Shown here: positions 3,763 to 44,528 of the stretch, one piece after another
Layout: each line of letters begins with the position of its first letter
How positions within the stretch are numbered: the stretch's first letter is position 1
NCBI GenBank assembly: GCA_946481315.1
Contig: CAMLMH010000001.1
Coordinates: forward strand, 186,001 to 250,000
Direction of reading: 5' to 3'
Length of the DNA: 64,000 nt
Source: an uncultured Bacteriovorax sp.
GTDB taxonomy: Bacteria; Bdellovibrionota; Bacteriovoracia; Bacteriovoracales; Bacteriovoracaceae
The notes under the pieces: model-generated
Database searches by the model: none
Seen by the model: the letters and a program-made list of their open reading frames with translations, nothing else
What the model was told of the DNA's origin: nothing
Made by a program: the position numbers and the translations under genes

Positions 3763-3785
3763 AAAAATATTGCAGGAGTTTAGAT

Positions 3786-8805: not shown

Positions 8806-8875
8806 AATTTTGTGTTTTTGGTGAGCAAGCTATATTCTTAATGCAACTATAACATTAATGGATTAGTTGATTAAA

Positions 8876-10427: not shown

Positions 10428-11355
10428 CTTTACTGTCATTTTTCTTTGTATTTTAGCCGGCCTCGTAGCCAGAAAAGTTAAAAAATTTCCGGCCAATACA
10501 GCAGTAGCTATAAATCAAATCATTATTCACTTGTCATTTCCGGCACTGGTTCTTTATCAATTTCCCAGACTATTGCTGTCACTTGATTTAAGCGGGTTCT
10601 GGTATGCACCGGTTACAATGGCCTGGATTGCATTTGTGTTCTCGTGGATTGTAATTTCTGCATTAGGAAAACACATGCAGTGGACCAAGGCTAAAACTGG
10701 TGCCTTAATTCTTACGGCAGGTCTGGGTAATACTTCTTTCGTAGGATTTCCGCTAATTGAAGCGATTGTTGGTGAGCAAGGAATTCCTACTGCTGTACTG
10801 GTGGATCAACCAGGGACCTTTTTAGTTTTATCGACACTCGGAATATTGGTCGCATCAAGCTACTCTGGCACTCAAAAGGTTACTGCTCGTGCGATTGCCC
10901 GACGTGTTTTTACATTTCCACCATTGATTGCCATGGTGTTGAGTATTTTGTGGTTTATAGTATTCGGTAAAAGAACTGATATTAACTGGACATATTTATT
11001 TATGCCACTGGAGAAAATTGGCTCTACATTGATTCCACTGGCCCTTTTTTCAGTTGGGTTTCAACTGGATTTTAATCCGTCTGTCTTGAAACGCCGGTGG
11101 TTAGCGCTGGCCATAGGATTAAATTTTAAATTATTGTTGATACCCGCTTTTTTTTCTTTTTTTTATCTTCTCTTGCTAGGAAACACACTGACCAGTCAGG
11201 TTATTATTCTTGAATCGGCAATGGCCACTATGATTACATCAGCAGTTGTAGCGCAAGAGTTTAATCTAGATACAGAACTTGCCAACCTTATGGTTGGTAT
11301 CAGTATTCCTGTTTCATTGATAACTGTACCATTGTGGAACTGGATTCTTTTTTAA
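10420..11355 (+). CDS. AEC family transporter (auxin efflux carrier fold)
   Basis: 311 aa polytopic protein with about ten transmembrane helices and the internal two-fold organisation of AEC transporters. The LGNTSFVGFPLIEAIVG region (~103-119) matches the discontinuous-helix motif of the first repeat. Members export or exchange organic acids such as malate, malonate or amino acids. It overlaps the ABC ATPase gene by 8 bp, so it is co-transcribed, but a functional link is not evident. Its stop overlaps by 4 bp the stop of the convergent M15 peptidase gene. Confidence 0.82.
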   Translation: MINFTVIFLCILAGLVARKVKKFPANTAVAINQIIIHLSFPALVLYQFPRLLLSLDLSGFWYAPVTMAWIAFVFSWIVISALGKHMQWTKAKTGALILTAGLGNTSFVGFPLIEAIVGEQGIPTAVLVDQPGTFLVLSTLGILVASSYSGTQKVTARAIARRVFTFPPLIAMVLSILWFIVFGKRTDINWTYLFMPLEKIGSTLIPLALFSVGFQLDFNPSVLKRRWLALAIGLNFKLLLIPAFFSFFYLLLLGNTLTSQVIILESAMATMITSAVVAQEFNLDTELANLMVGISIPVSLITVPLWNWILF

Positions 11356-12017
11356 ACGATGATGTAGCGCTGATAAATTTCAGGAAGTTCTTTTATTATA
11401 ATTTCTTTGAGCTCAATATCTGCATTGGTAATAGTTTCTGCGATAAGCTCATAACTTAAAAGTGATTCAAACTGTTCTGCAACAGGACGGTAACTTAAAT
11501 GCCATCGCTCCGGAGCAATTCCTCCCTTGTCATTGGAATATGGTCGATAAAAATCAAATTTTTCGAGATTGTCATCCAGCCATTGGTGAAGAGAGGCAAA
11601 AACACCTGTACCTTCTGTTTCTTCAGGGATGAGCTGAACTTTATAATCTGCTGATATGGCCTTCTGATCGTAGACATCGAAATCGCTTCCCCAGTGATGC
11701 CGGCTGGCTCCCGGGAGAGCAGACCAGCGAAGGATGGCATGAACAAGTTCAGTTTCTGTGAGGGATTTCGGATCCAGTGGAATTCCGTGTGAATCAAGAA
11801 TGATTCTTTCTCCTCGAACCTTGGCATTCCAGATAGAAAGTTGAGCTGAAAAACCCCGAAAACTACTTACGATGTCTATGGAGTGTCCGTCGAGTGCAGC
11901 GGCTTTGCGCATTTTTTCAAGCGCAGGAAGCATCTGAAGATGCACGAGTTTGTGACTCCTAATATCCAGAGTGAGATGTTCTTCGGTCTGACCGATAAGC
12001 TGATCGCGCAGGCTCAT
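11352..12017 (-). CDS. M15B-type D,D/L,D-carboxypeptidase (VanY/DdpX-like)
   Basis: 221 aa zinc peptidase of the D-Ala-D-Ala carboxypeptidase M15 family. The first zinc-binding motif is SRHHWGSDFD (His and Asp ligands) and the second is ERWHLSY near residue ~190 (catalytic Glu and last His). These enzymes trim peptidoglycan stem peptides. No signal peptide is seen, so it either acts in the cytoplasm on recycled peptides or is exported by another route. I chose ATG 12017, which has AAAGG eight bases upstream and begins two bases after the rlmN stop; the longer in-frame start at 12047 lies inside rlmN. Confidence 0.82.
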   Translation of the reverse strand: MSLRDQLIGQTEEHLTLDIRSHKLVHLQMLPALEKMRKAAALDGHSIDIVSSFRGFSAQLSIWNAKVRGERIILDSHGIPLDPKSLTETELVHAILRWSALPGASRHHWGSDFDVYDQKAISADYKVQLIPEETEGTGVFASLHQWLDDNLEKFDFYRPYSNDKGGIAPERWHLSYRPVAEQFESLLSYELIAETITNADIELKEIIIKELPEIYQRYIIV

Positions 12018-12019
12018 AA

Positions 12020-13054
12020 TTAAACCTTTGTATTGAGTTGTCCACAAGCTGCAAGTATATCATCGCCTTTTGTAGTCCGAATGAGAACTGGCAAGCGGTA
12101 TCTTTCTACAATTTTTTGAAATTTTTCAATCTGCTCATCTGTTGAGCGCTCAAATTCGCTGCCCGGAAAAGGATTGAAGGGGATGAGATTAATAATGGCC
12201 TGCCGATCTTTTAACAATTCACCTAATGCAATGGCATCGCTTTCTGTGTCGTTAAAATCACGGGCCATGAGGTATTCATAGGTCACATATTGTTTGCGTT
12301 TAAGCGGAATGTTCAGAATGATCGGCATAATTACTTTCAAAGGCCATTTTTGATTGATAGGAATAAGCCGGGATCTTTTATTATCATCAACAGCATGCAG
12401 AGACAGGGCCAGGTTTACCCCGGGAATTTCAGCATTCCATCGCTGAAGGCCGGGTAGATAACCGGCAGTGGAAATGGTAATTTTTTGAACACCAATACTC
12501 ATTCCATGCTGATCCAGAAAAATCTCGCACGCTTTTTTGACTGCGTCGAAGTTGTGTAAGGGTTCACCTTGTCCCATAAAAACAATGTTTTTAATCTGGT
12601 GGTCGCTCTTACGATTATTTTCCATCCACTTCCAGGCGACCAGATACTGACCTACGATTTCTTCTGTTGTGAGATGCCGCTTCAGACCTTGTGTGCCGGT
12701 ATAACAAAAAGAGCAGCTCATGGCACAGCCAACCTGAGATGAAAGGCAAAGAGTATATTTATTCTGAAAAGGAATTAAAACAGCCTCAATCGTTTTGCTG
12801 TCGGCTAATTTGAATAATAATTTTACAGTTTGATCAGTTGCCTCATGAACGTAGGCTATTTCAGGTAATGAAAAATCCATTTGTTCGCTGATAAGCTCCT
12901 GCGCTCTCAGCGCGAGGTTCTCTCTGCAAGGTTGTGTCTTCTTTAATTTGAGATGCCATTTGTACAGAAGAGAAGCCCCACTCAAAGACAGCTCGTGGGA
13001 AGCAAACCATTCTTCCAGTTCTTTAAACGTATATTGATAAAATGATTTTTTCAT
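12020..13054 (-). CDS. rlmN: Dual-specificity RNA methyltransferase RlmN (23S A2503 / tRNA A37)
   Basis: 344 aa radical SAM enzyme adding C2-methyl to A2503 of 23S rRNA and A37 of some tRNAs. The cluster motif CAMSCSFC supplies Cys110, 114 and 117. The two mechanistic cysteines are Cys103 and Cys337 (AACGQL), spaced as in E. coli Cys118/Cys355. The GQGEPLHN and ISTAGY segments are also RlmN-specific. The presence of the C-terminal Cys and the overall motifs favour RlmN over Cfr, though both share this chemistry. It overlaps the upstream HutD-like gene by 4 bp within a coupled minus-strand operon. Confidence 0.95.
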   Translation of the reverse strand: MKKSFYQYTFKELEEWFASHELSLSGASLLYKWHLKLKKTQPCRENLALRAQELISEQMDFSLPEIAYVHEATDQTVKLLFKLADSKTIEAVLIPFQNKYTLCLSSQVGCAMSCSFCYTGTQGLKRHLTTEEIVGQYLVAWKWMENNRKSDHQIKNIVFMGQGEPLHNFDAVKKACEIFLDQHGMSIGVQKITISTAGYLPGLQRWNAEIPGVNLALSLHAVDDNKRSRLIPINQKWPLKVIMPIILNIPLKRKQYVTYEYLMARDFNDTESDAIALGELLKDRQAIINLIPFNPFPGSEFERSTDEQIEKFQKIVERYRLPVLIRTTKGDDILAACGQLNTKV

Positions 13055-13557
13055 TTCAGCAAAACCGTAATGACAATTATAGTTCCGGCCATAACTGGAA
13101 CAATCTCACCTTTTTGAAGGATGTGAAGTTCATGCGAATCCGGCAGATACAGAAATGTTTCATTGCTTAGTACAAAAGGATTATTAATACCGTCGGAAAA
13201 GCTTTGAACCGAACAGCTGGCATATGAGCGGTCAGCCATGACATTAAAATCCTGGCATTCTCCACTGATAAGTGAACAGGAAACTTCCAATTCTCCCGGG
13301 AACTGAAACCATTTTAGTGCTGGGGTAAATATATTTTGAAAAGAGCTGCTGTTTAAAGTGAAACCATTTCCTTTGAGAAGGCAAATCCAGCGATCCATTC
13401 CGGGAAAAAGAGAGAACGGACCATCGCTGCTGATAGAGGCTTTAGAGAGACGAAATTTTAAATCACCGTTAATTTCACGGCGAAATAGCTCAGTGGTGAT
13501 TCCACCTCCATTTTTCCAGGGCATTTCAATAAAATCATTGGATGTTTTTTTGATCAT
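13051..13557 (-). CDS. HutD/Ves family protein
   Basis: About 168 aa, cupin-like HutD/Ves (DUF886) family. The diagnostic motif MPWKNGGGITTE lies ~11-22 residues after the chosen start, and the family's PGMDRWICLLKGNGF segment follows. HutD is usually found in histidine-utilisation operons and has been proposed as a ligand-sensing governor of Hut expression; Ves is a cold-related homologue. Here it is instead inside an operon with guanine deaminase. ATG 13557 overlaps the DUF1456 stop as ATGA; the longer start at 13620 would bury it in that gene. Function here is unknown. Confidence 0.85.
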   Translation of the reverse strand: MIKKTSNDFIEMPWKNGGGITTELFRREINGDLKFRLSKASISSDGPFSLFPGMDRWICLLKGNGFTLNSSSFQNIFTPALKWFQFPGELEVSCSLISGECQDFNVMADRSYASCSVQSFSDGINNPFVLSNETFLYLPDSHELHILQKGEIVPVMAGTIIVITVLLK

Positions 13558-14021
13558 CTTTTCTGATTTAACCACAGGCCTAGGCCTTTGAAGAAATTTC
13601 TTAAAAATTGATCTCCACATTCACGGTAGTTTTCATGTCCTTTTTTTCTAAGCAGGGCACTGAATTCCGACCTACCGATTTTAAATCCCGCCAGGCTCAT
13701 GGCTGCGTGCATGTCCTCTTCTTTAAGCGCAAATGCCACTTTGAGTTTTTTCAAAACCATATTGTTGTTTACCGGCGTCTCTATAGGAAGTGGGGGGCGC
13801 GATTCGTCTTTACCGCGTTTATAGATGATCATGCCGTCCAGAAAATGAGCCGCGGTCACATCCGGACATTTAATGAAACCTGATTCATCTTCTGCTTTCA
13901 AATAAGCATGCATCTTATCCGGATCGACTTTGTGGCCGGTCAGTGCGGTGATTTCTGCCATCTTGAAATCATCGACAGCTAACAGATAACGGACACTCCT
14001 TAAATAATCATTCGTCATCAT
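13554..14021 (-). CDS. DUF1456 family protein (YehS-like)
   Basis: 155 aa, made of two copies of the ~70-residue DUF1456 repeat. Both copies have a LRY/LKVA-F-L...M..I/M..L.G...D/R.E...L/F..LL/AYL pattern (~7-65 and ~88-150). E. coli YehS has the same two-repeat layout and no known function. Two adjacent ATGs are possible; the one at 14021 overlaps the guanine deaminase stop as TAATG, suggesting translational re-initiation. The conserved coupling with guaD and a HutD-like gene is the only clue to its role. Confidence 0.85.
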   Translation of the reverse strand: MMTNDYLRSVRYLLAVDDFKMAEITALTGHKVDPDKMHAYLKAEDESGFIKCPDVTAAHFLDGMIIYKRGKDESRPPLPIETPVNNNMVLKKLKVAFALKEEDMHAAMSLAGFKIGRSEFSALLRKKGHENYRECGDQFLRNFFKGLGLWLNQKR

Positions 14022-15343
14022 TATAGATTGCTCCGGTAAACTTGCTGTCCATTGATGTATGTTGCATGAACCGCGCGATCGTCTCCAATAGTCATCAGGA
14101 TAAACATTAATTCACTGATTGATTTTGCAGTTTCAGATCTCATTTTAAGTAAATCGGTTGCATGAGGATTAAGGACAACAAAATCCGCCTCGTGACCGGC
14201 CTTGAATGTTCCGATTTTATCTTCGAGCTGAAGGGCTTTTGCTCCGCCTAATGTCGCTAGATAAAAAGCTTTAAGTGCATCCAGCGGATAGGTATTTAAT
14301 TGAGCAACTTTGTAACTTTCATTCATGGTTTGCAGGAGAGAAAAACTGGTTCCAGCTCCAATATCTGTACCCAGGCCAACTTCAACCGGACGTTTTGAAT
14401 CTTTGGCTTTCGCCACTGAAAAGAGTCCGCTCCCCAAAAAAAGATTAGAAGTCGGACAATGAGCAATAGCAGTTCCTGTTTCATGACAGCGACAAAGCTC
14501 GGATTCATCTAAATGCACCCCGTGGGCCATGAGAGCTCTCTTGCCCAGCAAACCGAACTTTTCATACACATCAAGATAGCCTTTTGCTTTTGGGAAAAGT
14601 TCTTTCACCCATTCAATTTCTTTCAGGTTTTCTGAAACGTGAGATTGAACGTAAACGCCGGGATGTTCTTTCCATAATTGTCCGGCGAGTTCCAGTTGAG
14701 CTTCTGAACTTGTCGGAGCAAAACGAGGAGTAATGGCATAAAGATTACGTCCTTTGCCATGCCATTTTTTTATCAACGCTTTTGATTCTTCATACCCTTT
14801 TTCCGGTGTATCAAGTAATGCCTCCGGAGCGTGACGATCCATCAGCACCTTTCCACCAATAATCCGCATATTTAATTTTTCAGCTGCTTCAAACAAAGCA
14901 TCTACCGAAGAAGGGTGGACAGTACAAAAAACGAGCGCAGTGGTTGTTCCGTTTTTTGCCAGCTCATGACAAAAGAATTCTGCTTTTTTTGCAGCATAGT
15001 TTTTATCTGCGTATTTCTGCTCAACAACAAAAGTGTATTCATTCAGCCAATCGAGCAGTTGTTTTCCGTAAGCACCGATTATCTCTGTTTGAGGATAGTG
15101 AATATGGGTATCCACAAATCCCGGAGAAATAAGACAATCCGGAAAGTGATCGATGGTGCAACCAGTGGGTAATTGATATTTTATCTGCTGGTAAGGACCA
15201 ACGGCGGTAATGAGCCCGTCCTGAACAATGATGAGACCATCAGCTTCGTGAATAAATGAATGTTGATAATCATTAAAAAAGGGATCGGCTTTAAAATAAA
15301 TCAGCTGGCCCCTGACGGCCGCTATGGTTGGTGATTTCTGCAT
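14021..15343 (-). CDS. guaD: Guanine deaminase
   Basis: 440 aa amidohydrolase, near-identical in length to E. coli GuaD, converting guanine to xanthine and ammonia. The metal-binding start PGFVDTHIHYPQTEIIGAYG (~75-94) is the guanine deaminase signature. The HSSV/QSHVSEN His, the MAHGVHLDE His and the catalytic GLGTDIGAGTS Asp are present. AGGA precedes ATG 15343. It is the first gene of a five-gene coupled minus-strand operon. No xanthine dehydrogenase is nearby, so the enzyme probably serves purine salvage or nitrogen release. It is the second nucleobase-processing operon in the window after the uracil set. Confidence 0.93.
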   Translation of the reverse strand: MQKSPTIAAVRGQLIYFKADPFFNDYQHSFIHEADGLIIVQDGLITAVGPYQQIKYQLPTGCTIDHFPDCLISPGFVDTHIHYPQTEIIGAYGKQLLDWLNEYTFVVEQKYADKNYAAKKAEFFCHELAKNGTTTALVFCTVHPSSVDALFEAAEKLNMRIIGGKVLMDRHAPEALLDTPEKGYEESKALIKKWHGKGRNLYAITPRFAPTSSEAQLELAGQLWKEHPGVYVQSHVSENLKEIEWVKELFPKAKGYLDVYEKFGLLGKRALMAHGVHLDESELCRCHETGTAIAHCPTSNLFLGSGLFSVAKAKDSKRPVEVGLGTDIGAGTSFSLLQTMNESYKVAQLNTYPLDALKAFYLATLGGAKALQLEDKIGTFKAGHEADFVVLNPHATDLLKMRSETAKSISELMFILMTIGDDRAVHATYINGQQVYRSNL

Positions 15344-25148: not shown

Positions 25149-25173
25149 AAAGCCCGGTTGTACCGGGCTTTTT
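25149..25173. terminator. Bidirectional rho-independent terminator
   Basis: Perfect 10-bp stem (25149-25158 with 25162-25171), 3-base loop. T-rich on + and, read on -, followed by CTTTCTTTTTTT. It serves both the small protein gene and the convergent GH25 operon. Confidence 0.88.
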
Positions 25174-25993
25174 AATTATGCCATTGTTGTTTTAACTCTT
25201 CAGCGGTTCCATAAAAGACATTAATATCCATATCAAACTTTGTTCCCGGTACATTATAAAGACATGAACCTGTACTCGTGCAGTTTAATTCGCTGGAAAA
25301 TTGCCAGAGAAAATAATCTTTCCACAGGCCGAAGGGGAAATCGGTAACAGTCGATTTAAATCTGGCATACCAAAGTTTTGACTGTTGAAATAGGGGATGT
25401 ATTGCCACCTTTGTATTTAAAGCTTTTGTTGTGGAGTGATTGGCGTAGATTACAGGAATTCTCCCTGTCTTTTCAAAAATGTATTCTATGAACACAATCG
25501 CTTCTTCAACTGTCATGAAAGTATCCGATGTCGTGTTTTCCAGATCAAGAATCATCAGCGTATCAGTTTCATTTCCGATGAGAGAAAGAAACAAATCAGC
25601 CTGGGCAATCGTATTTCCTTTTTTTCCCAGGTGATAAGCACCCCAGAGATATCCGCGTTCTTTAGCTATCGCCTTGCGTGCGCGATACTGAGCATCGACT
25701 CTTGAGCCAATACTTGAACGATGAATGACCCCGACCATTTTTTTATCATTTGCCATCTCATCCCAGTCAATGGAATTGCCTTCGTAAGCATCAATAACAA
25801 TGGAGGCATCAGATTTTACCCAGGCACATCTTAGAGGGGCTACATCAGTATCAGTTAAGCCGGTACAGGGTGTTGCTGCAGTTATTTCTGTTTGCTCTGG
25901 TGGATCTATGATATCTGAAAGGGCGTCCATTCGTTTGCACGAAGACGCCATTCCCAGAATTATCATTATTAGTAGATAATTTATTTTTTCCAT
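25172..25993 (-). CDS. GH25-family muramidase, lipoprotein form
   Basis: 273 aa. A lipoprotein signal (lipobox ASSC, Cys ~19) is followed by a short linker and a GH25 lysozyme domain (~63-273). Active-site positions are visible: Asp68 (IDAYEG), GAYHLG on the barrel, and Asp150/Glu152 (LDLEN), the D-x-E pair of GH25. GH25 enzymes cut the MurNAc-GlcNAc bond of peptidoglycan. It is about 60-70% similar over the domain to the gene before it and overlaps it as TAATG. In Bdellovibrio a lysozyme (DslA) acts on deacetylated prey wall; a comparable predation or wall-remodelling role is an inference. Confidence 0.88.
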   Translation of the reverse strand: MEKINYLLIMIILGMASSCKRMDALSDIIDPPEQTEITAATPCTGLTDTDVAPLRCAWVKSDASIVIDAYEGNSIDWDEMANDKKMVGVIHRSSIGSRVDAQYRARKAIAKERGYLWGAYHLGKKGNTIAQADLFLSLIGNETDTLMILDLENTTSDTFMTVEEAIVFIEYIFEKTGRIPVIYANHSTTKALNTKVAIHPLFQQSKLWYARFKSTVTDFPFGLWKDYFLWQFSSELNCTSTGSCLYNVPGTKFDMDINVFYGTAEELKQQWHN

Positions 25994-26943
25994 TAATTGT
26001 TATTCCATGCAGCCTCTAACTCTGCCGGAGTACCATCAAATACATTGACGTCCATATCGAATTTAGTTCCCGGAACATTATAGAGACATGAACCGGTTGT
26101 GGTGCAGTTTAGCTCTGAAGAGAACTGCCATAAGAAGTAACCTTTCCAGATACCATTGGGAAAGTCGGATACAGTTGCCTTGAATCTTGCATACCACAGC
26201 TTGGACTGTTGAAATCTTGGATTGTTTTTAACTTTGGAATTAAGGGCAATAGTTGTTGCCTGATTGGCATACACAGTGGGAATAGAGCCAGTTTTTTCGT
26301 AAACATATTCCATAAAAGTCACTGCTTCATCAACCGACATGAATTTACCGTTTCCAGTATCTTCCAGATCCAGAACCATCAGAGTGTTAGGTTCGTCTTT
26401 GACTAGTGATAAAAAGAGTTCAGCCTGAGCAATGGTATTTCCCGGCAAACCTAAGTGATAAGCCCCCCAAAGATAGCCACGGCTTAAAGCTATAGCTTTA
26501 CGTGATTTATATAGACTATCGACCCTAGAACCAATACTTGAACGATGAATGACTCCTACAACTTTTTTATCAGTTGCCATTTTATCCCAGTCGATTGAAT
26601 TACCTTCATAAGCATCAATAACAATGGCGCTGTTCGCATTTTTCCATGGACTACTAAAATCTGTTCCATATGGAGCAGAACCGCCTCCACCTGTCGATGT
26701 TCCCCCGCCTGCAGTGGTGTCACCACCAGTTGAAGGGGCGTTGTCACCTGTCTGGTCAGTTGTACCGTCAATGACCGAATCTCCTAGGTCTGGCCTTGAA
26801 GCTCCTGAGGCATAAACGTTGTTTGTGAAAGAAAAGACTATTAAAAGAAGGACAAGAAAAGAGTAAAGATGAGGAAATGATTTAGAGAGAGTTGTGCACT
26901 TTGAGACCTTCCTGGGTCTTCGGGCTTCTGAGAGTAGCTTCAT
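25993..26943 (-). CDS. GH25-family muramidase with Gly/Thr-rich linker
   Basis: 316 aa, first gene of the tandem. It has an N-terminal basic stretch and hydrophobic signal segment (~28-46, cleavage near YAS), then a low-complexity Gly/Ser/Thr/Asp linker (~50-95), then the GH25 domain with Asp110, Asp192 and Glu194 as the probable active-site residues. Unlike its paralogue it has no lipobox, so it is likely secreted or periplasmic, while the second is membrane-anchored. AGGAG lies about 9 bases before ATG 26943. The pair arose by tandem duplication, with divergence chiefly in the N-terminal targeting region. Confidence 0.88.
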   Translation of the reverse strand: MKLLSEARRPRKVSKCTTLSKSFPHLYSFLVLLLIVFSFTNNVYASGASRPDLGDSVIDGTTDQTGDNAPSTGGDTTAGGGTSTGGGGSAPYGTDFSSPWKNANSAIVIDAYEGNSIDWDKMATDKKVVGVIHRSSIGSRVDSLYKSRKAIALSRGYLWGAYHLGLPGNTIAQAELFLSLVKDEPNTLMVLDLEDTGNGKFMSVDEAVTFMEYVYEKTGSIPTVYANQATTIALNSKVKNNPRFQQSKLWYARFKATVSDFPNGIWKGYFLWQFSSELNCTTTGSCLYNVPGTKFDMDVNVFDGTPAELEAAWNNN

Positions 26944-27173: not shown

Positions 27174-28016
27174 CTACTTTTGAGATTTTTTATAGAATGG
27201 ATATTTAATTTGTCCCCAGAATTGGTGGGGAACCGGACGACCGCCGGGAAGACCGACTTTTAATGTTTCTCTTTTAAATTTTGGTTTGTGATAAGTACCA
27301 AAAACTATATCCCAGAAAGACAAAATCTTTCCATAATTACTGTTACACTCAGAGAGTTTGGTTGAGTGATGAATTCGGTGCAACTCGGCTGTGTTAAAAA
27401 TTTTACTCATGATAATTGTTTTAAAATCAATATTGGCATGTTCTAGTGTTCCGGTAATGGCGTTCAATGTAAGAAAGAGCGCCGCCACCTCTTCATTGGG
27501 GCTGATCAGATAAACCGGAATGAAATAAAGAAAGAACTGGAAAAATAAATCAACGAAATGAAAACGTCCAGCATTCCCCCAATACACGCGAAGGGCGCCG
27601 TGATGGACGGCATGATATTTCAGCAAAAATTTGTTTTTATGAGAAATGCGGTGATACCAATAAAATAAAAATTCCGCAGATATGATAATGACGACAGCTT
27701 GAACAATGAATGGCAATCCTGCCAGCAATGGTTTAAAACCCAGTTTGGTATGCAGATAATAAAAAGAAAGTTCAACAAATTTTGCCACAAAGGGAAGCAC
27801 AATTAACGTCTGAATGATATCGGCTTTAAAGTCCCCCAGATCTTCATTCCAGTCATTGCGATAAGGAGTCATGCGCTCCAGAGCAATCATGACAATGACC
27901 ATGATTCCGAAAACTAGACTGGGAACAGCGGCCAGAGGAAAACCCGCCTGCAATAAAGTAAAATGTAATAATAGACTGACGACAATGAAGAAGGGATAAA
28001 CCAATAATTTTCTCAT
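27174..28016 (-). CDS. Fatty acid hydroxylase superfamily membrane protein
   Basis: 280 aa with four to five transmembrane helices. The eight-histidine di-iron signature is complete: HRISH (~142), HAVHH (~155) and HRIHH (~217), with HAN...(~193). Members hydroxylate or desaturate sterols, fatty acids or related lipids, or cleave ether lipids. Bacterial versions often have no proven substrate. No Shine-Dalgarno is visible before ATG 28016; GATAAA lies 6 bases upstream, a weak hint of a leaderless start. It is the last gene before the GH25 operon and shares its direction. Confidence 0.88.
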   Translation of the reverse strand: MRKLLVYPFFIVVSLLLHFTLLQAGFPLAAVPSLVFGIMVIVMIALERMTPYRNDWNEDLGDFKADIIQTLIVLPFVAKFVELSFYYLHTKLGFKPLLAGLPFIVQAVVIIISAEFLFYWYHRISHKNKFLLKYHAVHHGALRVYWGNAGRFHFVDLFFQFFLYFIPVYLISPNEEVAALFLTLNAITGTLEHANIDFKTIIMSKIFNTAELHRIHHSTKLSECNSNYGKILSFWDIVFGTYHKPKFKRETLKVGLPGGRPVPHQFWGQIKYPFYKKSQK

Positions 28017-36479: not shown

Positions 36480-37244
36480 ATGAGTCTCATTCAAGTTTCT
36501 CTGAAAGATTCAGTGCAAATCATCACGCTCAATCATAGCAGTTCGTTAAATGCGCTCTCAACAGGAATGCTGGAAGAAATCGCCATTACCCTGGCAAATG
36601 CAGAAAATGATGAACAAATCGGTTGTTCAGTGCTTTACGGTGGCAATAAAGCGTTTTCTTGTGGTTCCGATATTAGAGAAATGGAGGGGAAAACTCCGAT
36701 TCAAGTATATTACGATAAGCGTACAAAATTCTGGGAAATAATATTTAATTATAAAAAACCTTTAATCGCAGCAGTTAACCGAATGGCCCTGGGCTCAGGT
36801 TTTGAACTAGCCTTGATGTGTGATGCTATTATTTCGGACAAGAATGCTGTTTTCGGAAATCCTGAAATTAATTTAGGTTTAATTCCTGGCGCCTATGGAT
36901 CTGTTCTTTTACCTGAACTATTAGGCCACAGACTGGCTTTTGAATGGATGGCAACTGGAGCACATATTAATGCTGATGAAATTATGAAGGCAGGATTGAT
37001 TAACAAACTGGTTGTGCCTGAGCAGACATTGGCCACTGCCATTTTGTTAGCCGGAGAGTTGAATGAAAAGCCCCGGCAGGCCCTCTGGTTTGTCAAAGAA
37101 CTTACGCGACAAAAATATAAAAGTGAATTGGCAAATGCCCGCAAAATGGAACGCATGATGTTTTCATTACTGTTTTCTACTGAAAATACTCAGGAAGGAA
37201 TTGCAGCTTATATTGAAAAACGAAAGGCAAAATTCATACTATAA
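36480..37244 (+). CDS. Enoyl-CoA hydratase/isomerase family protein
   Basis: 254 aa crotonase fold. The oxyanion-hole segments SCGSDI (~63-68) and ALGSGFELALMCD (~104-116) are present, with catalytic Glu in GFELA (~111) and NPEINLG (~131). Crotonases hydrate or isomerise acyl-CoA/ACP double bonds. AGAGG lies 8 bases before the ATG. It is the outermost member of the divergent lipid-like cluster and could serve as its dehydratase; a separate beta-oxidation role is equally possible. It overlaps the SDR 3' end by 6 bp. Confidence 0.88.
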   Translation: MSLIQVSLKDSVQIITLNHSSSLNALSTGMLEEIAITLANAENDEQIGCSVLYGGNKAFSCGSDIREMEGKTPIQVYYDKRTKFWEIIFNYKKPLIAAVNRMALGSGFELALMCDAIISDKNAVFGNPEINLGLIPGAYGSVLLPELLGHRLAFEWMATGAHINADEIMKAGLINKLVVPEQTLATAILLAGELNEKPRQALWFVKELTRQKYKSELANARKMERMMFSLLFSTENTQEGIAAYIEKRKAKFIL

Positions 37245-37934
37245 AATTGTGAATATTTCTCCGGTTGTCGGATTAGTTTGTTCATTGATCAGGTATTGTA
37301 TCTGTGCACAGATTTTATAAGGCTCCACTAGAATTTTATCTTTATATTTTTCCAGGTTTTCACCAGGAAGTTTAACGACAGCAGGTCTGATACAATTCAC
37401 ACTAATATTTCGGTGAATAAGTTCCCGGGCAATGGATTTAGTGAAACCTTCAACTGCACTTTTAGCAGAACAATACAGACTGTATCCCGCCTCATTTCCT
37501 TCACTGGCAATAGAGCTAAAAGTAATAATTCTCCCGTATTTCTGAGCATACATATCCTCAGTAACTTTGCGGGTCAGGGCGATAACTCCATAAACGTGAG
37601 AGCTGAAAATCTCTATCGTATCCTGATGTGTAGTATTTAAAAAAAGATCCATTTTGGTATCACCGGCACAATTAATCAGCACGTGAGGAATTTGCTGGAA
37701 ATCTTCTTTGATTTTTTGGTAAACCCGAGATGCAGATTCGTCATCAACCACGAATTGTTGATAACTTTTTACAAGTGCGCCAGGGTGATGCAAATCCATT
37801 TCTGAGCGAGTGGCTTTCTCAATATTGCTTTTATACACCAAAGCGAGATTAAATTCCTTGATGAAGAAATGCGCTAGCTGAAAACCTATGCCGGAAGTTC
37901 CTCCGGTGATTATCATCAACGGTTTATTTTCCAA
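37239..37934 (-). CDS. Short-chain dehydrogenase/reductase, FabG-like
   Basis: 231 aa. NAD(P)-binding TGGTSGIG (~11-18), NCAG motif and the catalytic Ser in ITFSSIASEG with YSLYCSAK (Tyr and Lys four apart) are all present. FabG-like ketoreductases reduce beta-ketoacyl-ACP; this one is adjacent to ketosynthase and ACP genes, so that role is the natural reading. The start overlaps the radical SAM 3' end by 11 bp, and the two are co-transcribed. Confidence 0.88.
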   Translation of the reverse strand: MENKPLMIITGGTSGIGFQLAHFFIKEFNLALVYKSNIEKATRSEMDLHHPGALVKSYQQFVVDDESASRVYQKIKEDFQQIPHVLINCAGDTKMDLFLNTTHQDTIEIFSSHVYGVIALTRKVTEDMYAQKYGRIITFSSIASEGNEAGYSLYCSAKSAVEGFTKSIARELIHRNISVNCIRPAVVKLPGENLEKYKDKILVEPYKICAQIQYLINEQTNPTTGEIFTIL

Positions 37935-39531
37935 GGTTATTCTCCTTTAAAGTTTTCCAGTAATTTTCTAAAAATAAAACATATCTTTTATTGGCTTCCA
38001 TTCCCCAGGAAGCTGCAGTCGATTCATTGCGGGCCATGTCCCATATCTCTGAGATCGAAAAGCCGAGTGTCCGTAGAATGGGGTATGTGAAAATATTTCT
38101 CAATATAGTATTTTTTCCTTCTAAAGACCAAAGCTTAAGAAATTTTTCACTCAAAGCTGAAGCTTCCTGACTGGTCATGGCAGCATGAGACCACTGTGGA
38201 TTCTGGGTGTTTTCAGGAGACTCAATTGTGATTCCGTAATCAAGCGGAGAGCGCGAATATTCAGAATAGTCCATTGAGGTTTTATCCAGGGTCGATGAGT
38301 AGGGTTGCAGGTAAAGTCTAGCAACACTGATAAAGTCCAGCGGTTTGTTCTGGGCCATCCAGTGTATTGTCTCAATTATGCTTTCTTCATTTTCACCCGG
38401 TAAGCCAACTATAAATGAACCTTCAAACAAACAATGTTCCTGATATCGTTGATATGTATTGAGCAAAAATTCTTTAACTTCATCTGACGGAATTTTTTTT
38501 CCTGCTTTTTTGAGTGCCTGATCGTTGAAAGATTCGATTCCGAAGAAGAGTCCTTTCGCTCCTGACTTAATCATTATATCCATCGTTTCCGGGAATTTTA
38601 CTGCAACATCTACACGAGCATATGATATCCATTCAATCTGGAAAGGAAGGGTGAGAAACATAGAACATGTTTCCAGAACTTTCGCTCTTGAATCATTAAA
38701 GCAATCATCACAAAATTGATAGACGTTGGTTCCATGCGTTTCATAATTACGAATAATTTCTTCTTTTAAAAGATGAAGGTTTTTGCGGTTACTTCCACGT
38801 TTCTCGTAATGACAAAATTTACAGTTAAAGGAGCAGCCACGACTGATTTCCAGAGGAAGGGATTCATTTTTTGCGATTGCGTTTTTATCAGTGAATATAA
38901 CGGGAAGAATGATTTCATTTTTTAGAGATTGAGATTCTGTTATTACTTTATAATTTCGAAATAATTGGTGTTCCGGTGGTCTTTTATCTTTTAAGGAACG
39001 TGCGAATTCGACGATTGAGAAATTAGCAGTACCTAATACTACATAGTCAAAAGGACTTAAAACAGTCTGATTCAACAATAAGGATGTTTTGGCTCCGCCA
39101 ATAATCAGTTGGCCATCAGGGTTTCTGGCCCGAAGAATTTGTTTTACCGATTCAGCCCAGCAGCTAAGTTCGCTTTCATCATCAAACCACAAACCTTTTT
39201 TACGATATAGATGATGATATTCGTCACGGTTATTTCCGTCTCTGGACAGCGTACTTTCAATTAAAATTTTTCTGTAATCTTCATCGGCCAGTTTATTCCA
39301 TGAAACAGGCCTGGAGAGAAAAGTAGAACTCACACCAATGAAAAGTGTTTCATTGCTGATAAACTCTTTCAGATAGTTAAAAAAATCCGGATGTCGTAAA
39401 AAATAGTCAATAACAATAACTTTAAAACCTGCCTTTTCCAGTGAGGTTGCAAGCGAGTAAGAACCAATATAACGGCTGTCTCCGAGTGCAGAGTTAGTCA
39501 CTGTATCAGTTAATAAAATTACATCTGCCAT
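37924..39531 (-). CDS. Radical SAM protein with N-terminal B12-binding-like domain
   Basis: 535 aa. The cluster motif CSFNCKFC (~233-240) lies after an N-terminal Rossmann-like region (~1-200) that matches the position of a cobalamin-binding domain, though the DxHxxG histidine motif is not seen. The family (P-methylase/BchE-like) methylates, cyclises or rearranges unreactive carbons. It is transcribed with the SDR and divergent from the ligase-ACP-ketosynthase genes. Known relatives act in lipid or polyketide tailoring. Substrate is unknown. Confidence 0.85.
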   Translation of the reverse strand: MADVILLTDTVTNSALGDSRYIGSYSLATSLEKAGFKVIVIDYFLRHPDFFNYLKEFISNETLFIGVSSTFLSRPVSWNKLADEDYRKILIESTLSRDGNNRDEYHHLYRKKGLWFDDESELSCWAESVKQILRARNPDGQLIIGGAKTSLLLNQTVLSPFDYVVLGTANFSIVEFARSLKDKRPPEHQLFRNYKVITESQSLKNEIILPVIFTDKNAIAKNESLPLEISRGCSFNCKFCHYEKRGSNRKNLHLLKEEIIRNYETHGTNVYQFCDDCFNDSRAKVLETCSMFLTLPFQIEWISYARVDVAVKFPETMDIMIKSGAKGLFFGIESFNDQALKKAGKKIPSDEVKEFLLNTYQRYQEHCLFEGSFIVGLPGENEESIIETIHWMAQNKPLDFISVARLYLQPYSSTLDKTSMDYSEYSRSPLDYGITIESPENTQNPQWSHAAMTSQEASALSEKFLKLWSLEGKNTILRNIFTYPILRTLGFSISEIWDMARNESTAASWGMEANKRYVLFLENYWKTLKENNLGK

Positions 39532-39544
39532 CTTTTTCTGGTAC

Positions 39545-39559
39545 TTGCTTCTTAAGCAA
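39545..39559. promoter_or_regulatory. Dyad in the divergent promoter
   Basis: TTGCTT (39545-39550) and AAGCAA (39554-39559) with a 3-base centre form a perfect 6-bp inverted repeat between the radical SAM gene and the ligase gene. It is placed like an operator for both. Confidence 0.45.
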
Positions 39560-39597
39560 AAGATCCTGATAATGAGTTCATGCTACTCTGTAAGTAT

Positions 39598-40914
39598 ATG
39601 CTCAAAATTAAATCTCAGTCACAGGATAGTTTCAGAGTCCTAAGCATGGTGCAGGTTATACTTTTGGAAATTCGCAGACATGATATTAATCATGTGATAA
39701 TTCAAGATAGCAATGATCTAAGACAAGCTTTGCTCTTTTTAGCAGTGATTGATGAGGGAAGAGTTCCGGTCATCATTCCAAAGAGCTGGACAGAAAAAGA
39801 CATTAGAAAATTCTTAAGTGATCAACCCCGCCGTTGGATTTTTTTACAAAATGGGAATTTAATTACGACCAAAGAAGATGGAAGTAGTGAGCTAGGCCAG
39901 TTGCCAACATATGGAGTCTTCAGTTCGGGATCCAGTGCCTGCCCCAGGTTGTATTATTTTTCTGTCGAACAAGCGCGTTTGAATGCCAGAGCACACGCCA
40001 GTTCACAGAAGCTTTCTGCTGCTACCACCATTGTCAAAGTTCTCAACACTGATCATGCCTTTGGTATATGTGCCTATATCTGGACACCATTGGAATTAGA
40101 TTGTGAAGTGGTGTTTTCTGATATCGTTGATGAATTTGTTAATTATAGAGAGTTTTCCCTCGACAGTATTTTGTATCTAACTCCCCGCCAGACGGAGAGT
40201 CTTATATTAAAACGTCCTTCAATCCTGAGTCGATTTCATAAAATCAGCATTGGTTCTGACTGGCTGGCATCAGAGCATCTGAAATATTTATCGCAGCAAA
40301 CAGGAGCTGAGATTTATATCACTTATGGTCTGACTGAAGCTGGCCCACGCGTGAGCACTTACAGATATTATCCGCAGAGCAATTCCGATAATTATCCATT
40401 GGGATTTCCTCTTGATTTCGTCAGATGTAAGGTTCTGAATTCAACAGGGAAGATTACGGATTATGGTGAAGGTTTATTGCTGATAAAAAGTCCTTACCTA
40501 GCAACGGATCTATCTCCTGATCAACAAGTCGGACAGTATCTTAAAACCAGAGACAAGGTAAAAATCAATACCGATGGATTTATTGAGTTGATTCTGAATG
40601 AGAATGCTCACTTTAAATTTAATGGACATTTGATTGATTTAAATGAATTAAAAAGAAAATATTGTCCGGAATCCTCTATGCTCTATGCCGTTACTTGGAG
40701 TAAGGATTTAAGAAAATTCTGGGCCTTAATCATATACTCCCCCTTAGAATCTTTTATAACTCCGGAATTTGATTTCAACGTAGCCAGCAGACCGGAAAAA
40801 ATAGTTCAATTAAAAGAACTTAACGAAGGTCTGAACAAGCTTACAGTGAAAACAGTAAAGAATATGTTCAATACTGACGCAGATGATTTTCAAATGTACA
40901 GGAGCAGTATGTGA
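39598..40914 (+). CDS. AMP-dependent acyl-ACP/CoA ligase-like protein
   Basis: About 438 aa, adenylate-forming fold. The phosphate-binding loop is SSGSSACPR (~109-117), altered from the usual SSGTTGxPK; YGLTEAGPR (~242-250) is the acyl/AMP motif, followed by TRDKVKINTDGF and FKFNGHLIDLNELK (hinge). The A10 Lys segment is not obvious at the short C-terminus. The changed loop could mean weaker or altered catalysis. It overlaps the next gene by 4 bp, and begins the ACP-ketosynthase operon, so loading of a starter acid onto the ACP is inferred. Confidence 0.8.
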   Translation: MLKIKSQSQDSFRVLSMVQVILLEIRRHDINHVIIQDSNDLRQALLFLAVIDEGRVPVIIPKSWTEKDIRKFLSDQPRRWIFLQNGNLITTKEDGSSELGQLPTYGVFSSGSSACPRLYYFSVEQARLNARAHASSQKLSAATTIVKVLNTDHAFGICAYIWTPLELDCEVVFSDIVDEFVNYREFSLDSILYLTPRQTESLILKRPSILSRFHKISIGSDWLASEHLKYLSQQTGAEIYITYGLTEAGPRVSTYRYYPQSNSDNYPLGFPLDFVRCKVLNSTGKITDYGEGLLLIKSPYLATDLSPDQQVGQYLKTRDKVKINTDGFIELILNENAHFKFNGHLIDLNELKRKYCPESSMLYAVTWSKDLRKFWALIIYSPLESFITPEFDFNVASRPEKIVQLKELNEGLNKLTVKTVKNMFNTDADDFQMYRSSM

Positions 40915-41621
40915 GAGAGCTGGTTGAGTTTCAATTTTTCGAAGAGGCCTTAATTCAAGAAAGCTTCTCTTTTGAAAGCTGGAATGAAATATCGACTTGT
41001 TTTGAAGTTGCATTATTTCCGGATGAGACTTTTGTACGGATTGAAATTGATCGGGCGCAGTTGAGACAAATGGGGCGAATAGCAAGGATGCTGATCTGGT
41101 TTGCTGATAAAAATAAAATTAAAAGAATACTGACAGATAATAATATTTCTCCAGATAGAACTGGTCTTTACGGAGCTATTTATAGCAGTGAGTTTCCTTA
41201 CGGTGTTTATCGAAAAACATTAAAGACAAATGACTATGCAGATGCTATTAATAATGATCTCCATCCATTCAGTCTAATCTTTCGCTCTAATGCCCTAACT
41301 AGTGCCCACTTAAGTCATTTTCTTTCCATAACCGGACCAACTCAGACATTCACTCATAAGAAATGGGCACTGGTTCATGCGCTGGAGCAAGCAAAGTTCG
41401 ATTTGGAAAATAATAAAATTAATTTTGCAGTAATTTTCACGGCTCACGCGATAAAAGATGATCCTTTGCGATTTTCAACGTCAAAACAAAATCTCAATAG
41501 CGAATGTGTATTAATTGCAGGATTTGAGAGCATTAATAATTCAACCATAGAAAACATAAAGAGAGAAAATTGGAATGCGGAGTCTTTTATAGAAATATTA
41601 TTAAAAAATAAAGGAGTGTAG
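40911..41621 (+). CDS. Ketosynthase-like N-terminal domain protein, active-site Cys not evident
   Basis: 236 aa resembling the thiolase-fold N-terminal half of beta-ketoacyl synthases (short 'ketoacyl-synt_2'-type). RQMGRIARM (~51), GLYGAIYSSEFP (~84) and SITGPTQTFTHKKWALVHALEQAKFDL (~140-166) align with the fold, but there is no Cys at the nucleophile position and no His/HGTGT half. It could be a chain-length-factor-like partner of the downstream ketosynthase. Similar short proteins occur in aryl-polyene-type clusters. Confidence 0.7.
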   Translation: MRELVEFQFFEEALIQESFSFESWNEISTCFEVALFPDETFVRIEIDRAQLRQMGRIARMLIWFADKNKIKRILTDNNISPDRTGLYGAIYSSEFPYGVYRKTLKTNDYADAINNDLHPFSLIFRSNALTSAHLSHFLSITGPTQTFTHKKWALVHALEQAKFDLENNKINFAVIFTAHAIKDDPLRFSTSKQNLNSECVLIAGFESINNSTIENIKRENWNAESFIEILLKNKGV

Positions 41622-41624
41622 TAG

Positions 41625-41900
41625 ATGAATATGCAACCAGACTGGCAAGTCATAGCTGATGCAGTTTTATTGATTAAATCAATTGAGCCAGAAAGAATTA
41701 AGCCTGACTGTTATGTGGGGCGCGACCTGGGAATTGATTCGATTGGTGTTGTGGATTTATGGTTTGAATTAAAGAAACTTACCAGAACTGATTCTAACCT
41801 TAATCAGTTCTACAAACATATCCGTTCGGATACGAACAGAGAGTTTTACAATGACTTTACTATACGGGAATTAGCAGATTATCTGCGATTGAAAGTATGA
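41625..41900 (+). CDS. Acyl carrier protein
   Basis: 91 aa four-helix ACP. The phosphopantetheine site is Ser39 in LGIDSIG. It is more basic and longer after helix 2 than FabD-pathway AcpP, with an insertion (HIRSDTNREFY). It sits between the KS-like gene and the ketosynthase, overlapping the latter by 4 bp, so it is a dedicated carrier. Confidence 0.9.
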   Translation: MNMQPDWQVIADAVLLIKSIEPERIKPDCYVGRDLGIDSIGVVDLWFELKKLTRTDSNLNQFYKHIRSDTNREFYNDFTIRELADYLRLKV

Positions 41901-43072
41901 AAAAATGTGTTATCAGCGGTCGCTCATTACTTAGCTCGCAGGGAGCCGGAGTAAAAGCAATAAGCTTGGCACTTCGTAGTCAAAAAAGTGCTTTATATTC
42001 TTCTGGTAAATATTTTGACGAAGATATTGGAGTTTCTTCTGTTGCCATAGTTCCGCCCGGATTATTTGCTCAAAAGACTTACAGTGATTTTCAACTACGC
42101 AATAAAATTGAAACTTCACTTATGCTTTTGTTTACTGAGTTGAAACCTTCACTGCAAGGTTTGACAACAATAGATGCTGTTTATCTAAATGTTGGAACAT
42201 CAGAATTCAGGGCTGCCATAGATGATAAGGGATTCATCTGCGAGCAGGAAGTATGGATCAATTGTATTCAGCAAGAACTGAAAAAACTTTCGATGGATGT
42301 AGACGAAAGAAGAATTTATCTAACCGATAATGTTTGCTCCAGCTCAACCGTCTCAATTGGTGTCGCCAGCGAAAAAATCCGAAAAGGCATGTTTAAAAAT
42401 TCTTTGATCATAGCAATGGATCTGGTGACTCTTCCAATATTGTCGGGACTTAATTCATTGGGAGCCCTTTCCCGCCTGCAGCCTGCAGAAAAAGCATGCC
42501 GGCCATTTTCTCGTTCGCGCAGCGGTTTTGTTCGTGCAGAGGCCCTCGGGATGCTGCTACTGGAAGAAGAGGAATCTGCCAGGACACGCAATGCAGATTT
42601 TCAGAATGCAATTACAGGTTTTGGCCAATCTTCAGATGCCAGACACATCACAGCTGGTTGCGAGTTCTCACTTGGTATTAAAAAAGCTATTTCCGAGGCT
42701 TTAATCTCAGCAGAACTTAATGCGAGTTTGATTCAGGTCGTAAAGGCGCACGGGACGGGTACAAAAATCAATGATCAAAACGAAGCGAGAGCTATTAAAG
42801 AGCTACTGCCTGGTATACCAGTAATCTCTTTTAAAGGACAGTTTGGACATTCGGCTGCTTCTTCAGGATTGTTCGAAACAATTCTTTGCGAAATTATGCT
42901 TAACGATCAGATTATTTATCCTTCTTTAAACTGTGAAGACAGAGACCCGGAGCTGGAGATTAATATTATTGATAGTCAAAAGCCTGCCCGAATCTCAAAC
43001 ATTCTGATGAATGCATTTGGTTTTGGCGGAAATAATGCTGTTCTGGTTATGAGCAAATGTAAAAATGAATAA
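41897..43072 (+). CDS. Beta-ketoacyl-ACP synthase (KAS II/type II PKS-like)
   Basis: 391 aa with the complete Cys-His-His triad: Cys147 (NVCSSS), His285 (KAHGTGT) and His318 (QFGHSAA), plus Lys313. The gatekeeping segment RPFSRSRSGFV has Ser where most FabF have Asp. It condenses malonyl-ACP with acyl chains. Together with the KS-like partner it may form a heterodimer. It overlaps the preceding ACP and the following membrane-protein gene. Confidence 0.92.
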   Translation: MKKCVISGRSLLSSQGAGVKAISLALRSQKSALYSSGKYFDEDIGVSSVAIVPPGLFAQKTYSDFQLRNKIETSLMLLFTELKPSLQGLTTIDAVYLNVGTSEFRAAIDDKGFICEQEVWINCIQQELKKLSMDVDERRIYLTDNVCSSSTVSIGVASEKIRKGMFKNSLIIAMDLVTLPILSGLNSLGALSRLQPAEKACRPFSRSRSGFVRAEALGMLLLEEEESARTRNADFQNAITGFGQSSDARHITAGCEFSLGIKKAISEALISAELNASLIQVVKAHGTGTKINDQNEARAIKELLPGIPVISFKGQFGHSAASSGLFETILCEIMLNDQIIYPSLNCEDRDPELEINIIDSQKPARISNILMNAFGFGGNNAVLVMSKCKNE

Positions 43073-44528
43073 AATATCAGCAACAGACATTCTTTCTTTT
43101 GTAAGAACCGTGGTTATTGTTATGGTGATGGGCTTTTGCCTTTTCTTGGGTCAGTATCAGCACTATTTTTTACTTCCTGCTTTTGCTCTATTCTTTTTAC
43201 AGATCAAAAAAGAGAAATCTACTCACCTGGTGGTGATCAGCTTTATTTTTCTTTTTTTAATGGATTCATTTTTTTATTCACTGGACTTCAGCTCTCTCAA
43301 GTATTTTGGAGAGAACAAAAATCTGGCATTTTTTATTCTGAGCGAAGGGCAAAGTTACTTTGATCTTAAGATTATGACTCTTGGCGGACTAATATTTTTA
43401 CTGTCCTTAACCTTTGTTTATTATCGCTTAAAAGTTCTCAATCCGCTTGTCTATCTCATTGGGAGTTTTTTCCTGCTGACGACATTGCTGTCAACACTGG
43501 GTAAAATGACCTTCCTCTACCAGTTAATTATTGCAACCCTTCTCATATTGGCCAAGTCCTTTTGGTATATCGGACTTAATCTGCAGATGATCCGTTTTAG
43601 TCCAGTTTCTCCCGGACTGGCCCAGCTTTCAGAATCGATAATACCTTTCTGGTCTTATGGGCTGGTTCGCAGTCATAGTGTTCCGAATGGCTGGCGAGAG
43701 ATTAAGTTTAAATTAAATCAAAATCCTGAAATTTATCAAATTCAGTTATCAGGCATACGGCTGGCCATACTTTCATTAAGTTTAAAATACCTTTCTGCTC
43801 TCTTGTACAAAGCTTTATTTGGAATGAATTTAAATTTACCTCTCTGGGGAGAATTTCATTTTCCTTCTCTGGAACTTCCTAATCCTTTCAGTATGGGATT
43901 TAATCACTACAATGCCCTGAGCCGACCAGCCTGGGAGTGTTTTTTTGTAACCTTAATTAATCCGCTTCTATATATTCTTCGAGAACCTGTCGGTGATGGA
44001 GGCGTGTTGATTGGCTTTATCCGTATTCTGGGAATTAGCGCTCCTGCTCAGGTAGACCGTCCTTATCTGGCAAAAAATTTCAACGATTTTTTTAAAAGAA
44101 TTTATTTCTACTACAACTATTTATTGATCGAATTTTTTGTCGTTCCTCTTTATCACCTGATGAGCCATCTTGATTTGACAAGAAAACTGCGTTTGTTTTT
44201 AAGTGTTCTGATTGCTGTTTATACCGGAGGGGTGTTGCTTAATTATTTCCGGCATGATTTATGGCTGGTGAAATATGGCCCTTTTGAAGCCTTTAGCATG
44301 ATGCTTGGACGATCTTATTATTTTGCCGGTGTCGCTTTCCTCTCGGCGATCTCAGCAGTCAGGTCAAAAAATGAGAGAGAGCTAATCGGCTTTAAAAAAT
44401 GGGCAATCCCTCTAGCCGTTTATATAAGTTATGCTCTGGTATTCAGCATGCAGACAAGTTATAAAGAAGATGATTTAAGTGACCGGATAGAATTTCTTAT
44501 ACGTCTATCCGGTCTTCAGTTGAATTAA
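43065..44528 (+). CDS. Polytopic membrane protein, MBOAT-like
   Basis: 487 aa with ten or more transmembrane helices. The FNDFFKRIYFYYNYLLIEFF segment (~342-361) resembles the central motif of MBOAT O-acyltransferases, and a LMSHLDL region follows with a His (~368) that could be catalytic. It overlaps the ketosynthase gene and ends the cluster. An acyltransferase moving the cluster's product to a lipid or wall component is an inference. It overlaps the PrkA stop by 4 bp. Confidence 0.7.
   Translation: MNKISATDILSFVRTVVIVMVMGFCLFLGQYQHYFLLPAFALFFLQIKKEKSTHLVVISFIFLFLMDSFFYSLDFSSLKYFGENKNLAFFILSEGQSYFDLKIMTLGGLIFLLSLTFVYYRLKVLNPLVYLIGSFFLLTTLLSTLGKMTFLYQLIIATLLILAKSFWYIGLNLQMIRFSPVSPGLAQLSESIIPFWSYGLVRSHSVPNGWREIKFKLNQNPEIYQIQLSGIRLAILSLSLKYLSALLYKALFGMNLNLPLWGEFHFPSLELPNPFSMGFNHYNALSRPAWECFFVTLINPLLYILREPVGDGGVLIGFIRILGISAPAQVDRPYLAKNFNDFFKRIYFYYNYLLIEFFVVPLYHLMSHLDLTRKLRLFLSVLIAVYTGGVLLNYFRHDLWLVKYGPFEAFSMMLGRSYYFAGVAFLSAISAVRSKNERELIGFKKWAIPLAVYISYALVFSMQTSYKEDDLSDRIEFLIRLSGLQLN

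Follow-up and report, generated by a model that had tools for sequence, protein, structure and literature searches.

A probable type II polyketide synthase-like cluster in an uncultured Bacteriovorax and its relatives among the Bdellovibrionota

Do eight closely packed genes in the genome of an uncultured Bacteriovorax sp. encode one biosynthetic pathway, and to which kind of synthesis would it belong? The genes occupy positions 36480-44528 of a 64,000-nucleotide stretch of DNA (GenBank assembly GCA_946481315.1, contig CAMLMH010000001.1, positions 186,001 to 250,000 of the forward strand; the whole stretch is called the window below), and a sequence-only reading had described them as an eight-gene array within 8 kb that resembles a fatty acid or polyketide cluster. 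All eight open reading frames (ORFs) were recovered in that order and at those positions. We consider it probable, from gene content and comparison with relatives, that the locus is a type II polyketide synthase (PKS)-like cluster of separate enzymes and one member of a family in the Bdellovibrionota. The genes, with the basis of each assignment, are as follows.

36480-37244, + strand: crotonase (enoyl-CoA hydratase family; PF00378, 213.6 bits)
37239-37934, - strand: short-chain dehydrogenase/reductase (SDR), FabG-like ketoreductase (PF00106; TGGTSGIG and YCSAK motifs)
37924-39531, - strand: radical S-adenosylmethionine (SAM) protein, candidate methylase (PF04055, 56.2 bits, above cut-off)
39580-40914, + strand: AMP-forming acid ligase with an altered P-loop (PF00501; alignment; tree)
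40911-41621, + strand: putative half-size ketosynthase partner of 236 aa, like a chain-length factor (CLF) or cyclisation factor (profile comparison; relatives adjacent to ketosynthases)
41625-41900, + strand: acyl carrier protein (ACP), D38-S39 (NCBIfam ACP models, below cut-off; motif)
41897-43072, + strand: ketosynthase (KS), Cys147/His285/His318 (PF00109 and PF02801)
43065-44528, + strand: membrane protein, divergent MBOAT relative without the canonical histidines (20-row alignment)

Recurrence and layout of the core genes

The window partner finds matches in 10 of 368 Bdellovibrionota genomes, and in 10 of 10 partner regions a KS gene adjoins it, directly or across the ACP gene alone (the scoring accepts any FabF-like KS). 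An ACP gene is present in nine of these regions, a ligase gene in eight and an SDR relative (E 1e-20) in seven, some of the regions being limited by short contigs (L095 spans 3.6 kb). For the membrane protein, 17 matching places were found, spread over 16 of the 368 genomes; 8 of these 17 MBOAT-like regions hold a KS gene, including all six places with E <1e-9, and ligase and ACP genes occur in 9 and 11 of them. Two loci, L155 and L205, carry six of six core genes (KS, partner, ACP, SDR, ligase and MBOAT-like), with the SDR and MBOAT-like genes overlapping in both. Based on the adjacency of partner and KS, a KS clade supported at 100/100 (see below) and the joint presence of the six genes in L155 and L205, the core is a recurring cluster family and not a chance arrangement. 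The earlier proposal of a single cluster thus holds for these six genes, which are not scattered in relatives; the radical SAM and crotonase genes are not conserved with them.

Extra genes in several partner clusters encode hotdog proteins, a further SDR, an asparagine synthase and a hydrolase. A second cluster form without an MBOAT-like gene, with two SDRs and a FabZ-like protein, was seen in L091-L094, L097 and L098, and the extras of L092 comprise a thioesterase-like protein, an asparagine synthase, a hydrolase and a C92-type amidase. Three MBOAT-like KS clusters have DctP-type solute-binding proteins in their vicinity (L100:5454-7672, L154:4187-5212, L155:3021-4049), one copy in each being confirmed by PF03480 and a second similar ORF standing in L100. 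Viral contigs gave no confirmed match, and plasmids gave only KSs below 60% identity.

Window NadA is 83% identical to the protein of G014 (the genome of L155), 81% to that of G021 (the genome of L205) and 63% to that of G129; with the genome of L059, a Streptomyces, identity is 55%, and the partial matches (29-39%) in G231, G210 and G238 make NadA an imperfect yardstick. The window KS and SDR are just 30-34% identical to their L155 and L205 counterparts, so that the cluster either changes far faster than NadA or was exchanged. The G+C content of the 8-kb cluster is slightly low (0.384; 8-kb stretches of the window average 0.403, sd 0.011, range 0.380-0.425), without a clear sign of foreign origin.

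The five + strand genes (39580-44528) do overlap or nearly so, as had been noticed; their successive junctions (a 4-base overlap, a 3-base gap, a 4-base overlap and an 8-base overlap) fit one transcript. The radical SAM and SDR genes overlap by 11 bases on the - strand, in one operon. This pair had also been described as divergent from a shared promoter: the space in question is a 48-base gap, and a consensus scan found no promoter site in it. One 9-of-12 consensus site lies on the - strand at 39622-39593, just inside the start of the ligase gene; overall the scan returned 17 sites, fewer than the 27.9 in shuffles. The crotonase gene converges with the SDR gene, and 36 bases separate its start from a pseudouridine synthase gene in divergent orientation, which places it outside both operons. 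At E 0.001, Pfam gave no match for the partner, ACP or membrane protein; at E 10, the partner matched PF00109 (E 0.014) and the ACP PF00550 (E 0.026), with still no match for the membrane protein.

Ketosynthase, partner and ligase beside known systems

The KS retains its catalytic residues Cys147, His285 and His318, and the ACP its serine (D38-S39). Against NCBIfam, the KS scores 187.2 bits with fabF (TIGR03150, cut-off 493.75) and lower, 131 bits, with AmcF (cut-off 325). In two KS trees (46 and 47 rows) it falls inside a clade supported at 100/100, with 12 rows in the first tree and 11 in the second, all from these Bdellovibrionota clusters, with L155 (and L205) as its neighbours at 100/98. 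In both trees this clade is separate from eight Bdellovibrionota FabFs and from the AmcF-type KSs (20 rows hand-picked from KS-bearing ligase loci), and in the second tree three KSs adjoining PF13723 proteins lie outside it. The second tree was made without the long branches L154, L158 and L021 and with L205 and those three KSs; L095 and L099 are in neither tree, and the KSs of L156 and L157 belong to other clades. The KS score far under the fabF cut-off and the trees reject a FabDHGF-like locus, in keeping with the earlier view that this is not a standard one.

The 236-aa protein, earlier called KS-like, is kin to KSs and is here corrected to a half-size partner: by its sequence it looks like a KS partner without the active-site cysteine, as are AmcG of cispentacin synthesis and ApeC of the aryl polyene pair ApeO-ApeC. 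It has no NCBIfam match at E 0.001, so that the AmcG model NF058659 (cut-off 80) is likewise not reported, and it scores 4.3 bits against a profile of AmcG-type ORFs. A ten-row profile of the partner family (omitting L154, L155, L157 and L158), compared with 30 AmcG-type proteins limited to 160-205 aa, gave 87.4% with a score of 45.5 (reverse 70.5%, 39.1), against at most 14.4 in 20 column-shuffled controls. The same profile scored 26.5 against KSs and 19.1 against five PF13723 proteins (the rows left after removal of the AmcG-type L164, a gene also in L033), while the AmcG set scored 35.7 against those five. The partner profile is nearer to AmcG than to the PF13723 proteins in these comparisons, yet all appear remote: against five-row AmcG subsets (n=5) the partner profile scored 26.6-40.3, the weakest of these scores not above the score against KSs, so that partner, AmcG and PF13723 proteins are all best regarded as remote kin. 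Nor does the profile reach AmcG in genome searches, since it had no match in five genomes, two of which (those of L047 and L059) contain AmcG-type ORFs. Among 107 Myxococcota genomes it was weakly matched in 7, in every case within open frames of at least 416 aa.

The best NCBIfam model for the ligase is AmcH, named as the 2-oxoglutaryl-ACP ligase of cispentacin synthesis, at 72.5 bits with a cut-off of 370. In a 54-row tree the window ligase stands apart from 15 ligases of other clusters and Dlt-like loci and groups with P0002-P0008 at 100/99, and more widely with L001 and L003-L006; the whole wider group is sister to the AmcH clade, a placement that hinges on the rooting chosen. The tree omitted P0005 and others, as well as the ligase ORFs of L097, L099 and L158. 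Because the window ligase lies not among the ligases of the other clusters but with those of another cluster type, we read this as a probable exchange of the starter ligase between clusters. Four of the loci with ligases kin to the window's (L001, L004, L005 and L006, at ~8600-14600) show by eye two FabH-like proteins, an ACP, an epimerase-like protein and mostly an SDR. Genome contigs were also searched with a 23-row ligase alignment, and the best 80 of 114 loci were kept; a profile built from eight short ORFs that intervene between KS and ligase recognized an AmcG-type short ORF in 62 of these 80.

These likenesses raise the question of whether the locus is a minimal pathway of the cispentacin or coronafacate kind, in which 2-oxoglutarate would be loaded, one malonyl unit added and a cyclopentenone closed, then reduced and methylated. 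Passages of PMC10698177 describe AmcH as loading the ACP, and AmcF with its short partner AmcG as extending and cyclising the chain, and give a minimal cluster type of just those four genes (ligase, ACP, KS and short partner). The same four kinds (AmcB, AmcF, AmcG and AmcH) are adjacent in the window, by kind only; AmcH is the ligase's best model and its clade the sister of the ligase group, and the partner profile comes closest to AmcG. The window differs in gene order and in the absence of an AmcE-like hotdog gene among the eight, adds the SDR, radical SAM and MBOAT-like genes, satisfies no cut-off for AmcF, AmcG or AmcH, and has its KS and ligase outside the AmcF and AmcH clades, all of which weakens its membership in the amc/cfa group. 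Moreover, the ligases of the other clusters belong to other clades, so that 2-oxoglutarate cannot have been inherited as the starter across the family. The AmcF, AmcG and AmcH labels rest on gene position for most rows; in an NCBIfam check of five loci, L037, L049 and L041 score above the cut-offs tried (AmcG >80 included), L060, checked for KS and ligase, passes that of AmcH (394.3) but with 323.5 bits stays 1.5 bits short of that of AmcF, and L014 stays below all of them (227.4 for AmcF, no AmcG, 217 for AmcH). We judge this pathway unlikely for the window. No match to a characterized cluster was found; amc/cfa is the nearest family, with every NCBIfam cut-off missed, and the cluster is distant kin of the enzymes responsible for cispentacin, an antifungal amino acid.

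A maker of polyenes or fatty acids, of the highly reducing type II or aryl polyene kind and working through several rounds of extension, reduction and dehydration, would also account for a FabG-like SDR and a crotonase beside a KS pair. The aryl polyene KS likewise has a half-size CLF, according to passages of PMC8358021, and FabZ-like proteins are added in several relatives of the window cluster. However, there is no FabZ-like gene among the eight; PF13723, which marks half-size CLFs, has no match in the window partner at E 10, nor in any of 8 genomes carrying these or related clusters; and the low profile score against PF13723 proteins, like the three KSs beside such proteins that fall outside the clade, weakens membership in the aryl polyene group. 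A polyene or fatty acid product thus seems improbable.

Membrane protein and genes outside the core

Returning to the favoured reading, a PKS-like cluster belonging to a Bdellovibrionota family, we find that a number of observations count against it. The MBOAT-like gene is present in just 2 of 10 partner regions, and among the 17 MBOAT-like regions the partner is found in just 6 and the SDR in 3. A KS, partner or MBOAT-like gene occurs in 0 of 15 radical SAM regions, and a crotonase relative (E 1e-15) in 0 of 40 regions of relatives. The window partner and its one close relative, taken alone, reach just 8.7% in the comparison with AmcG; the window KS is a long branch in both trees (1.45 and 1.58); in the ligase alignment the P-loop is altered (SSGSSACPR, residues 115-123); and the canonical MBOAT histidines are missing from the membrane protein. 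The altered P-loop, lost histidines and long KS branch could indicate a decaying cluster that no longer works in this genome, an explanation made very improbable by eight open ORFs, an intact KS triad and ACP serine, and metagenome relatives of the ligase (55% identity), partner (59%) and membrane protein (47%), one of which shares the histidine loss.

The membrane protein is alignable with the MBOAT core in the 20-row alignment, and by BLAST it matches proteins of L199 and L200 (E 3.5e-6 and 4.1e-6), both of which match PF03062; three of the aligned relatives match this family. The relative in L096 matches MBOAT_2 at E 0.013, under the cut-off. Where MBOATs have the signature DFWRRWH, the window protein has DFFKRIY (starting at residue 341); in place of the GLWHG region it has GGVLLN (starting at 388), and N393 and H397 stand nearby. 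By eye, a histidine near the GLWHG point is present in several relatives and absent in L155 and L205. The earlier label of MBOAT-like membrane protein survives as to kinship and falls as to the canonical residues; we regard the protein as an MBOAT relative and putative transferase. Passages of PMC11035591 describe DltB as using His289 and His336 and receiving the acyl group from DltC; the mapping of window residues onto these two is our own. As in the Dlt pathway (DltA, DltC, DltB and DltD), a ligase, a carrier and an MBOAT relative are encoded together, but the window adds a KS pair and a reductase, has lost the MBOAT histidines and shows no Pfam match to DltD among its eight proteins. Nine MBOAT-like regions lack a KS; the three that were scanned all match MBOAT, and four of the nine carry ligase and ACP genes, a gene set as in the Dlt pathway. 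Dlt-like sets of ligase, ACP and MBOAT genes lie at L199:5704-9856 and L200:1268-5372, with a DltD match in L199 and a similar ORF in L200.

The radical SAM protein has both the C233-C237-C240 motif (CX3CX2C) and the Radical_SAM domain, and a weak match to the B12-binding PF02310 (25.5 bits, under the cut-off of 32.1). Its best NCBIfam model is PhpK at 116.9 bits, far below the cut-off of 600, which likens it to the PhpK-type B12 radical SAM methyltransferases; its Bdellovibrionota relatives (E 1e-12; 72 of 368 genomes, identity up to 43%) stand in other surroundings. The 15 radical SAM regions represent 16 of the 17 best places, some of them <9 kb, and the first genome searches scored three candidates per genome; an ACP occurs in one region (L142) and a ligase in one (L152). 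By eye, two radical SAM relatives at L142:5106-16468 stand on either side of a gene set with desaturase-like proteins, two transketolase-like ORFs, an ACP and an SDR. Crotonase-similar proteins (E 1e-40) occur in 69 of 368 genomes. Neither radical SAM nor crotonase genes appear in any of the 10 partner regions, and with the counts from the 15 and 40 regions above we reject both as conserved members. The radical SAM gene is linked to the cluster through the operon that it shares with the SDR; relatives of the SDR are part of the clusters, and the SDR keeps its nucleotide-binding and YxxxK motifs. Crotonase Glu109 and Glu129 stand at what we take to be the positions of the two catalytic Glu of hydratases; its membership in the pathway is doubtful.

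Three further features of the window lie away from the cluster. At 1284-5026, GTP cyclohydrolase II-like, DUF1688, uracil phosphoribosyltransferase and uridine kinase-like genes form a run that is reminiscent of the URC pyrimidine-degradation route. Two similar, lysozyme-like family 25 glycoside hydrolases (PF01183) are neighbours at 25172-26943, and a membrane protein of the fatty acid hydroxylase family (PF04116) is encoded at 27174-28016, 8 kb off the cluster.

Putative pathway and its meaning for the family

From the gene set, its recurrence, the intact KS triad and the ACP serine, we infer a series of reactions in which starter, chain length, methylation and acceptor are all conjectural. 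The AMP-ligase would activate a carboxylic acid and load it onto the dedicated ACP; the KS and its half-size partner would join this starter to malonyl units, with malonyl transfer by the host FabD (as proposed for AmcB); and the SDR would reduce the beta-ketone. Dehydration might be carried out by the crotonase or by the host FabZ, and the radical SAM enzyme might methylate the product. Finally, at the membrane, the ACP would pass its acyl group to the MBOAT relative, just as DltC passes one to DltB. More tentatively, PKS-like synthesis and Dlt-type transfer may be joined here, such that the KS and its partner build on the ACP a short acyl group, possibly ring-closed and methylated by the radical SAM enzyme, and the ACP delivers it directly to an MBOAT relative with a re-wired active site, which attaches it to an envelope molecule; this is conceivable, though we lean against it.

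In the open-licence literature we found no paper on this cluster family, and the core family is undescribed in the literature searched, its logic being known from type II PKS-like systems. Passages of PMC8067016 report polyketide-type clusters detected by antiSMASH in Bdellovibrionota, among which single members of the family may have been counted; in PMC10132072, which catalogues type II KS-CLF pairs, the word Bdellovibrio is absent from the main text. Model-based mining can miss the family because the partner has no Pfam or NCBIfam match at E 0.001 and the KS scores far under the fabF cut-off. If the reading as a PKS-like cluster family is correct, these loci would extend the known kinds of KS pair, AmcF-AmcG and ApeO-ApeC among them, by one more, from a phylum about whose small molecules little is known, and would make it possible to test directly if chain length or ring closure is set by short KS partners. 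If, in addition, PKS-like synthesis and Dlt-type transfer are joined in one logic, exchanged starter ligases would give rise to lineage-specific envelope decorations in predatory bacteria.

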